Positions 631 to 5,426 of a stretch of DNA of 64,000 bases are shown here, in pieces; the first letter of the stretch is position 1, and each line of letters begins with the position of its first letter. A program made the position numbers and the translations under genes. The notes under the pieces are model-generated. The model saw nothing but the letters and a program-made list of their open reading frames with translations. It was not told where the DNA came from and did no database searches. The stretch lies in contig JAJQGO010000026.1 of NCBI GenBank assembly GCA_021200415.1, forward strand, positions 50,571 through 114,570. Reading direction: 5' to 3'. This DNA is from Ruminococcus sp. (GTDB taxonomy: Bacteria; Bacillota; Clostridia; Oscillospirales; Ruminococcaceae).

Positions 631-1374
631 TTATCCCTTGTGTTTTAACTTTGACTTCAATCCGTTCATTATAATATCACGTGCCTTGATGGCTTCCTCC
701 TTCGGGAGCGGCTCTACGTCCTTCAAAGCGTAATCGATTCCCAGATTTTCGTACTTCACCTTGCCCATGTCGTGATATGGCAGGACGTCCAGCGCCTTGA
801 GATTTTTGAGCGTTGAGAGATACTCCCCCAAGCGGAAAAGATACTCCTCGTTGTACGTGATTCCGGGAACAACAACGTGACGCACCCACAGGTCAACATT
901 CCTGTCGCGGAGATACTCCGCAAACGCCAGTATATGTTCATTTCCCATGCCCGTGAGCTTCTTATGCTCCTCGCTGTCGATGTGCTTTATGTCGAGCATT
1001 ACAAGGTCTGTATTGTCAATAATTTTGTCAATTTTCTCGTGTGATTTCGGATTAAACACCGCACCCGACGTGTCGAGGCAGGTGTGGATTCCCTTTGCTT
1101 TCGCCTTCGCGAAAAATTCCGCAAGAAATTCCGGCTGAGCCATGGGTTCACCGCCTGTCGCCGTAATTCCGCCCGATTTCAGAAATTCCTTGTAGGAATC
1201 GTACTCCTCGAGAAGCTCCTCCGCCGTAGTTTCTTTGCCGCCGTTGAAATTCCAAGTATCGGGGTTGTGGCAGTAAAGGCACCTCAGGGGGCAGCCCTGA
1301 AAAAACACCACAAAACGCACTCCGGGACCATCAACGGTTCCGAAGCTTTCCGTTGAATGTATATGTCCAATCAT
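631..1374 (-). CDS. pflA: Pyruvate formate-lyase activating enzyme (radical SAM)
   Basis: This 247-residue protein is the S-adenosylmethionine radical enzyme that abstracts a hydrogen from the active-site glycine of pyruvate formate-lyase, switching the lyase on under anaerobiosis. The cluster-binding motif is seen near residue 30 as 'CPLRCLYCHNPDTW' (CxxxCxxC), preceded by the usual 'STESFGTVDGPGVRFVVF' and followed by 'GGITATGGEP'. Length is normal for the family. The ATG overlaps the stop of cca (ttATGA), so translation is coupled, with GGAGG inside the cca end. Its target, the glycyl-radical domain, is encoded separately three genes upstream in the same orientation. Confidence 0.97.
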   Translation of the reverse strand: MIGHIHSTESFGTVDGPGVRFVVFFQGCPLRCLYCHNPDTWNFNGGKETTAEELLEEYDSYKEFLKSGGITATGGEPMAQPEFLAEFFAKAKAKGIHTCLDTSGAVFNPKSHEKIDKIIDNTDLVMLDIKHIDSEEHKKLTGMGNEHILAFAEYLRDRNVDLWVRHVVVPGITYNEEYLFRLGEYLSTLKNLKALDVLPYHDMGKVKYENLGIDYALKDVEPLPKEEAIKARDIIMNGLKSKLKHKG

Positions 1375-2728: not shown

Positions 2729-2767
2729 TAAAAACAACCGCCTACCGTTTCCGGCAAGCGGTTGAAA
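2729..2767 (-). terminator. Terminator hairpin after the glycyl-radical gene
   Basis: On the minus strand an 11-bp stem with one mismatch (aaccgcttgcc/ggtaggcggtt) is followed by gtttttaac. It lies between the 79-aa radical-domain gene and cca, so cca-pflA may depend on read-through or on a promoter not recognised here. Confidence 0.65.
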
Positions 2768-3041: not shown

Positions 3042-3245
3042 TTAGTCTTCTTCGGTTTCCAGCTCTGTCGGCTGGCAGCAAGCGCCCTTTTTACCGCCGC
3101 ACTCCCTGCTGTTCACGGTAGTTACGGAGTATCCGTCACCGTCCTCCAGAGCCGAAATATTCACACTGCCGTTGCCGCTTGCCATGAGCTTATCAATCAT
3201 TTCTGCAAGCTCGGCAGCTTTTTCAGCATTTTTGTTATCGTTCAT
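3042..3245 (-). CDS. Unknown 67-aa protein between the two PFL pieces
   Basis: I do not recognise this protein. It starts 5 nt after the PFL-core stop and is followed 21 nt later by the radical-domain gene, so it is very likely real and co-translated. The N-terminal half is a predicted helix rich in Lys, Ala and Glu; the centre looks like a short beta pair ('NGSVNISALEDGDGYSV'); the C-terminus holds a cysteine group 'ECGGKKGACCQP' and an acidic tail. No signal peptide or membrane segment is seen. Position suggests a role in assembling, protecting or activating the split enzyme, but this is inference only. Confidence 0.8.
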   Translation of the reverse strand: MNDNKNAEKAAELAEMIDKLMASGNGSVNISALEDGDGYSVTTVNSRECGGKKGACCQPTELETEED

Positions 3246-3250
3246 TTTAA

Positions 3251-5347
3251 TTATTCTCCGAGCTTGTCGATGTCAATATCACCGACAAATACCTTCATGT
3301 CCTTGCCGAGAGCGTCAGGAATAATCGAGAATGTGTTTGAAATTCCGTCCTGTGCGTCTGTGAAGGGGAGCTTAGCAACTGAAGCAAGTGAAGCTACAGC
3401 GCCATGAGTATCACGTCCGTGCATCGGGTTTGCACCGGGGGCAAGCGGAACACCAAGCTTACGTCCGTCAGGTGTGCTGCCTGTGTTCTTGCCGTATACA
3501 ACATTGGAAGTGATTGTAAGGATAGAGGTTGTGGGAACGCCGTTTCTGTAGCAGTGCTGCTGACGAACCTTATTCATGAACTTTTCAAGAATTTCAACTG
3601 CGATTGAGTCTACTCTGTCATCGTTGTTGCCGTACTTCGGGAAATCGCCCTCAATCTCATAATCAACAGCGACATTCTTTGCAACGCCTGTAACCTCGCC
3701 CTTCTTGTTCTTGATTTCGATGTCCTTGCGGATAATCTTAACCTTTGCGTACTTGATTGCGGAGAGGGAGTCAGCGACAACTGAAAGTCCTGCAACACCT
3801 GTTGCGAAGTAACGCTTAACCTCTCTGTCATGAAGAGCCATCTGGAGGCTTTCGTAGCAGTACTTATCGTGCATATAGTGAATGCAGTTAAGTGTATCAA
3901 CATACAGACCTGCAAGCCAAGTCATCATGTCGTCATACATGGACATAACTGTATTGTAGTCGAGGTATTCACCCTCATACGGGCGATACTTAGGTCCAAC
4001 CTGAACGCCTGTCTTTTCATCGACACCGCCGTTGATAGCGTAGAGGAGGCACTTAGCGAGGTTAGCTCTTGCGCCGAAGAACTGCATTTCCTTGCCGACT
4101 CTCATTGAAGATACGCAGCAAGCGATAGCGTAGTCGTCGCCATGAGTTACGCGCATGAGGTCATCGTTCTCGTACTGGATAGAGGATGTCTTGATAGAAA
4201 TCGAAGCTGCATACTCCTTGAATCCGACAGGAAGTCTTGTTGACCAGAGAACTGTAAGGTTCGGTTCAGGTGAGGTTCCGAGGTTTTCAAGAGTATGTAA
4301 ATAACGGAAACTGTTCTTTGTAACCATGTGTCTGCCGTCGATTCCGACACCGCCGATAGACTCTGTAACCCACTGAGGGTCGCCCGAGAAGAGCGAATTG
4401 TACTCGGGAGTTCTTGCGAAACGAACAAGGCGAAGCTTCATGATGAAGTGGTCGATAATTTCCTGAGCCTGTGTTTCGTTGAGGATACCTTTCTTTATAT
4501 CACGCTCGAAGTAGATGTCGAGGAAGGTTGATGTACGTCCAAGGGACATAGCTGCGCCGTTCTGATCCTTAACTGCGCCAAGGTAGCCGAAATAAACTGC
4601 CTGAACAGCCTCTTTAGCGGTTGTAGCGGGCTTAGAAATATCGCAGCCGTAAAGCTCAGCCATTTTCTTGAGATTCTCGAGAGCGCGGAGCTGATCAGCA
4701 ATTTCCTCACGTGCGCGGATTTTTTCTTCGGTCATCGGGCGGGTATAGAAGTCCTTCTGAGCCTTCTTGTCAGCGATGAGCTTATCAACACCGTAAAGAG
4801 CGACACGTCTGTAATCGCCGATAATACGTCCTCTGCCGTAAGCATCGGGAAGTCCCGTAAGAATCTTGTTGGATCTTGCGGCTCTCATTTCAGGTGTGTA
4901 AACGTCGAAAACGCCCTGATTGTGGGTTTTGCGGTATTCGGTGAAGATATGCTTGATTTCGTCGTCAACCTCATAGCCGTTGTCAGCGCAAGCCTTAGCA
5001 GCCATATTCAGACCACCGTAGGGCATAAGCGCTCTCTTGAAGGGCTTATCTGTCTGAAGTCCCACGATCTGCTCGAGGTCCTTGTTGAGGTAGCCCGGAC
5101 CGTGTGAAACGAGTGAGGAAACAACCTTGGTATCCATATCGAGAACGCCGCCGGCTTCTCTTTCCTGCTTCATGAGGTCAAGAACCTGATCCCAGAGGGT
5201 TTTTGTAGCCTCCGTAGGGTCAGCGAGGAATGAGGAATCGCCGTCATAGGGCGTGTAGTTTTTCTGAATGAAGTCACGGACATCAATACGCTCGCACCAT
5301 TTACCTGTTACGAAGCCTTCCCAAGCCTGGGGCAATGTTTTTTCCAT
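3251..5347 (-). CDS. pflB: Formate C-acetyltransferase core lacking the radical domain
   Basis: This is pyruvate formate-lyase, which converts pyruvate and CoA to acetyl-CoA and formate. The 698 residues cover the N-terminal barrel and the active-site dicysteine ('[17 protein letters not shown]'), and end with '[18 protein letters not shown]' plus about 14 residues. Typical PFL is about 740-760 residues and continues directly into the glycyl-radical domain; that part is missing and is encoded separately at 2781-3020. The break is clean, with a normal stop and a downstream gene 5 nt away, so it does not look like a frameshift. A promoter with TTGACA lies upstream (5398-5426), and GGAGAG precedes the ATG. 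Confidence 0.96.
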
Positions 5348-5397: not shown

Positions 5398-5426
5398 ATA
5401 GTACCACATCTGCGGCAGAATGTCAA
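5398..5426 (-). promoter_or_regulatory. Promoter of the split pfl operon
   Basis: Read on minus: TTGACA, 17-nt spacer, TACTAT, with TGTGG just before the -10, the same pre -10 pattern seen at other promoters in this window. The rest of the 5348-5645 intergenic stretch is AT-rich and shows no gene; I see no clear regulator site in it. Confidence 0.7.

Follow-up and report, generated by a model that had tools for sequence, protein, structure and literature searches.

Pyruvate formate-lyase (PFL) is a main enzyme of fermentation in gut anaerobes, and oxygen destroys it by attack at the glycyl radical. E. coli can rescue the oxygen-cleaved enzyme with the autonomous glycyl radical cofactor GrcA (YfiD), and residues 696-733 of the cleaved PFL are required both for YfiD to bind and for activation, 32-fold less radical being formed without them. 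This segment contains the beta-10 strand, which duplicates one in YfiD (PMC8683613). Small Cys-containing proteins encoded beside a large catalytic subunit are also present in other glycyl radical enzymes. Examples are BSS beta/gamma, HPAD gamma, and MASS delta, whose folds resemble HiPIP or rubredoxin and hold [4Fe-4S] clusters or Fe (PMC12358834). The lineage described here carries a separate radical domain, GrcA3, together with a third, small protein that copies part of the segment essential for the E. coli spare-part rescue. As in the E. coli stub 696-733, a second copy of beta-10 stands alongside a spare radical domain; here, however, it belongs to a separate small protein with cysteines, and the enzyme is permanently split. 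No paper on this 67-aa family was found in a literature search that had most subscription journals outside its scope.

In the window, by which we mean the whole stretch of 64,000 nucleotides of Ruminococcus sp. DNA that was analysed, the PFL core, the 67-aa ORF, and GrcA3, followed by a terminator, are predicted to form one transcription unit (Table 1). The ORF starts 5 nt past the core stop, in agreement with the tight coupling to the core that had been claimed in the original prediction, and ends 21 nt short of GrcA3. Beyond the terminator, the same strand carries a tRNA nucleotidyltransferase gene and pflA. The core scores 1070 bits against TIGR01255, above the cut-off, but the match stops at position 666 of the 744 in the model, and GrcA3 provides the end that is absent. 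The core has the PFL fold with adjacent catalytic cysteines, and the C410-C411 pair is invariant across 85 aligned relatives. In the window genome, neither another PFL-like enzyme nor a further glycyl radical domain was found. For the core end and beta-10 we use E. coli numbering on a mapping that we take to be correct and that goes beyond the residues named in PMC8683613. C120, H402, and C433 of the window core are kept in split cores and mostly missing from fused PFLs, a pattern that may only mark descent.

Table 1. Features of the split pfl locus and its surroundings, in window coordinates
Feature	Position	Strand	Basis and remarks
67-aa accessory protein gene ("mid")	3042..3245	-	ATG start; N-terminal helix and strand homologous to GrcA3 residues 3-31, then C-terminal two-Cys tail and acidic end
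Docking-like module, roughly residues 7-35 of the 67-aa protein	3141..3227	-	Homology to the radical-domain helix and beta-10 strand (hhalign; AF2, low confidence)
Two-Cys motif C49-x6-C56 of the 67-aa protein, with non-conserved C57, and P59	3069..3101	-	Conservation; similar tails on some cores
PFL core (formate C-acetyltransferase) with catalytic cysteines C410-C411; no glycyl radical domain at its C-terminus	3251..5347	-	TIGR01255
GrcA3, glycyl radical domain as a separate protein; contains the RVSGYA loop	2781..3020	-	NF038360, 167 bits (cut-off 158); PF01228
Promoter-like site upstream of the core, sigma-70-type TTGACA-17-TACTAT with TG	5398..5426	-	Consensus match only
Strong predicted intrinsic terminator downstream of GrcA3, at the end of the three-gene unit	2735..2764	-	z -4.4
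pflA, PFL-activating radical SAM enzyme, outside the three-gene unit	631..1374	-	TIGR02493, 303 bits

The 67-aa ORF is a genuine gene under purifying selection. Relatives were collected from whole genomes and GTDB contigs, and the ORF is more than a chance reading frame because a profile search finds a homologous ORF in the same gap between core and GrcA3 at 88 of 115 distinct split-pfl loci, and because its dN/dS lies between 0.04 and 0.16 in ten pairs of relatives. Among 59 aligned members, the common residues are D18, G24, H27, C49, A55, C56, and P59; C56 is present in 59/59, and each of the others in at least 90%. Every member (59/59) has at least two cysteines, and 55 of the 59 have only two or three in total. 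The C-x6-CC group and acidic tail described earlier are present in the window protein (C49, C56, and C57), and most members also end in acidic residues, but the conserved cysteines are two rather than three, as C57 is not conserved.

Searched alone against Pfam, NCBIfam, and PHROGs, the window sequence gives no match at E < 0.05. The earlier statement that the protein matches no family is therefore true of this single sequence, but it does not hold for its relatives, which match the GrcA3 model and have a first half homologous to it. Specifically, a 29-column alignment joins the family profile to GrcA3, placing positions 7-35 on GrcA3 3-31 (hhalign E 3.2e-8, prob 95). The real alignment scores 40.8, compared with a maximum of 16.3 among 200 column shuffles, and a reversed-alignment control returns nothing. 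NF038360, the GrcA3 model, is matched by 35 of the 59 members with a best E of 4e-6; the cut-off of 158 bits is not reached by any of them, and the window protein has no NF038360 match. Additionally, GrcA3 genes are recovered in whole genomes by the 67-aa family profile alone. Because of the hhalign result, the NF038360 matches, the whole-genome profile matches, and the negative shuffle controls, the first half of the protein is assigned, by sequence comparison, as a duplicated and since diverged form of the radical-domain helix and beta-10 strand. The second half is new and forms a two-Cys tail, which gives no signal, local or global, against the GrcA3 glycyl loop. Compared with GrcA3 and GrcA (YfiD), the small protein shares about 29 homologous N-terminal residues and a gene position beside the PFL core, but it lacks the RVSGYA glycyl radical loop and the C-terminal helix of the radical domain, and has the two-Cys acidic tail instead. 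The possibility that a Cys loop stands in place of the Gly loop was dropped, since no alignment joins the second half to the latter. A low-confidence AF2 model of the 67-aa protein contains a helix at residues 4-23 and a strand at 27-32, its overall form being a helix, two strands, and a loose tail. Single-chain AlphaFold2 models reach pLDDT values of 61 and 68, and a Foldseek search of the PDB with one of them gives nothing below E 1. Among solved structures, searches by sequence returned only troponin C and other chance matches, which were set aside.

The gene follows the split of the enzyme closely. In 299 genomes of the window's family, where a genome was counted as split if it had a separate GrcA3 in an open frame well under 200 aa, a full-length 67-aa protein is found in 41 of 55 split-PFL genomes versus 0 of 244 others, presence and absence being judged mainly on draft and metagenome-assembled genomes. 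Other families of the class add nine cases, each of them next to a split pfl, and a set of 399 genomes across the phylum contains one occurrence besides the window, in the same class. The protein represents a previously unnamed family of gut Clostridia that is nearly always encoded between the two halves of a split PFL. Absence of the ORF, or of its conservation as a protein, in other split genomes had been set beforehand as the refuting outcome, and the ORF does recur beside split pfl with conservation at the protein level. The original interpretation is partly supported, and its proposal of a three-part system withstands this test: the ORF is kept beside split pfl in at least five Clostridia families and occurs in none of the unsplit genomes sampled from the window's family. 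In two genomes (G192 and G112), the gene is missing at the split locus and is present on another contig beside a gene that is dCMP deaminase-like by sequence, so it has been retained after relocation. One locus (L178) has the order core, GrcA3, small gene. In two others (L105 and L109), pflA stands between the split core and GrcA3, and these loci have neither the 67-aa gene nor a Cys tail.

Where the small gene is missing, a similar Cys tail is often found on the core itself. The 115 split loci divide into 88 with the gene, 19 without it whose core carries a tail of two or three Cys (for example, DCGMGACNAPTLFEGLDDDDE in L084), and 8 with neither. Cysteines occur in the core tail at 0 of the 88 loci with the gene versus two or three in each of the 19 loci without it, a difference with a Fisher value of 9e-16 that is not corrected for descent. 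A profile built from the Cys half of the 67-aa family finds some of these Cys-tailed core ends (E 5e-5 for L084 and 0.01-0.25 for others), and it matches no other core C-terminus. On a tree of the cores, gene and tail each fall into clusters and each require four or more changes, so that few events underlie the switch between them, and a pairwise test of gene against core tail that allows for descent is not significant, there being too few independent pairs. This pattern is suggestive of the Cys tail being the working part of the protein, with the helix-strand half serving to deliver it to the core. In several genomes of the eight loci with neither element, no clear copy was found. These loci rule out a strict rule of one, and only one, Cys element per split PFL, and the 67-aa protein is therefore not strictly required. 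Of 11 fused PFLs of the family, 9 are free of Cys in the stretch that joins core and radical domain. One fused PFL that lies within the split-PFL clade (L161, from G123) has a Cys-containing insert, GCDNC, between these two parts and is perhaps a re-fusion.

The 67-aa protein is probably a third part of the PFL enzyme. More specifically, the explanation that we favour, and to which we give about an even chance, is that of an accessory third subunit of a naturally split PFL, which docks like the first part of a radical domain and presents a Cys pair. The N-terminal half would most likely dock at or near the site where the matching GrcA3 segment packs on the core barrel, and the flexible C-terminal tail would present the two conserved cysteines to the core. 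At the barrel mouth, this pair could serve as a local dithiol and, up to the loading of GrcA3 and its activation by PflA, keep the empty core fit for use, either by protecting or re-reducing the adjacent catalytic C410-C411 or by quenching stray radicals. The docking site, the dithiol chemistry, and the effect on loading or activation are what we infer from these data; metal binding, thiol chemistry, and help with assembly, all raised in the original prediction, may likewise be among the functions of the protein. A tentative and rather unlikely extension is a serviceable three-part PFL, in which GrcA3 would be a replaceable cartridge, while a resident pseudo-radical-domain with a redox dithiol would sit in the empty core, shield the catalytic cysteines from oxygen, and hand the core to fresh GrcA3 and PflA. 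If the accessory role is true, the locus would offer a testable system for what residues 696-733 do and for how a core without its radical domain stays ready.

Other explanations account for parts of the same evidence. The small protein could be a recognition element acting in trans, which replaces the stub 696-733 of oxygen-cleaved PFL and lets GrcA3 bind and be activated by PflA, its cysteines only stabilising the 67-aa protein itself. The core ends before the stub region, the small protein duplicates the beta-10 part of that region, and the 32-fold loss of radical in E. coli tPFL:YfiD without 696-733 is accompanied by no measurable binding (PMC8683613). However, cores with a short Cys tail stay split with no beta-10 duplicate at the locus, and the sole invariant residue is a Cys outside the strand; we regard this role as unlikely. 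The variable Cys spacing (from CC to C-x8-C) and the presence of only two ligands weigh against a metal clamp, in which the two cysteines, together with His or Cys supplied by GrcA3 (such as its invariant GGHH) or by the core (such as the split-specific C433/H402), would bind Zn or Fe and hold the radical domain. Such a clamp would fit the recurrence of Cys pairs in the 67-aa protein and in core tails, the invariance of GrcA3 H23-H24 in 37 sequences, the conservation of C433 and H402 in split PFLs and their general absence from fused ones, and the existence of metal-binding small subunits in other glycyl radical enzymes (PMC12358834). Yet the HH pair is present in fused PFL as well, and we regard the clamp as distinctly unlikely. 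The four Cys cluster ligands of HiPIP-like [4Fe-4S] accessory subunits are not conserved in the 67-aa family, which, in contrast to BSS beta/gamma, HPAD gamma, and MASS delta, has two conserved cysteines and is partly derived from a radical domain.

A placeholder cap is also conceivable: the strand would fill the beta-10 slot of the barrel when this is empty or when GrcA3 swings out for activation, and would stabilise the open state, in a manner similar to the gating of the benzylsuccinate synthase radical domain by BSS-beta. While the protein duplicates the very strand that GrcA3 would insert, and BSS provides a known case of gating by an accessory subunit, a cap offers no account of the strandless Cys tail that seemingly can substitute for it, and it is very unlikely. 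Finally, a partial copy that has no glycyl loop and is missing altogether in some lineages might be seen as a functionless, decaying leftover of a duplicated radical domain. This is hardly credible in view of the purifying selection on the gene, the two or more cysteines kept in every member, and the retention of the gene after relocation.

Further copies of the radical domain and of its helix-strand start are found away from pfl. Solo GrcA3 genes occur apart from pfl at several loci (L078, L082, L092, L094, L098, L100, L102, L104, and L106-L108); their genomes also carry the small gene beside another GrcA3, and the solo gene is seemingly a true spare copy. A second standalone family of small proteins with the same helix-strand start, not encoded next to pfl, is present at L114:4096-4290, L152:2494-2727, L153, L154:2551-2844, L155, L156, and L157:2636-2869. 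Most of its members have a [YH]HHGRCDVGSPWA-like motif, and one member matches GrcA3 with an E of 1.1e-6.
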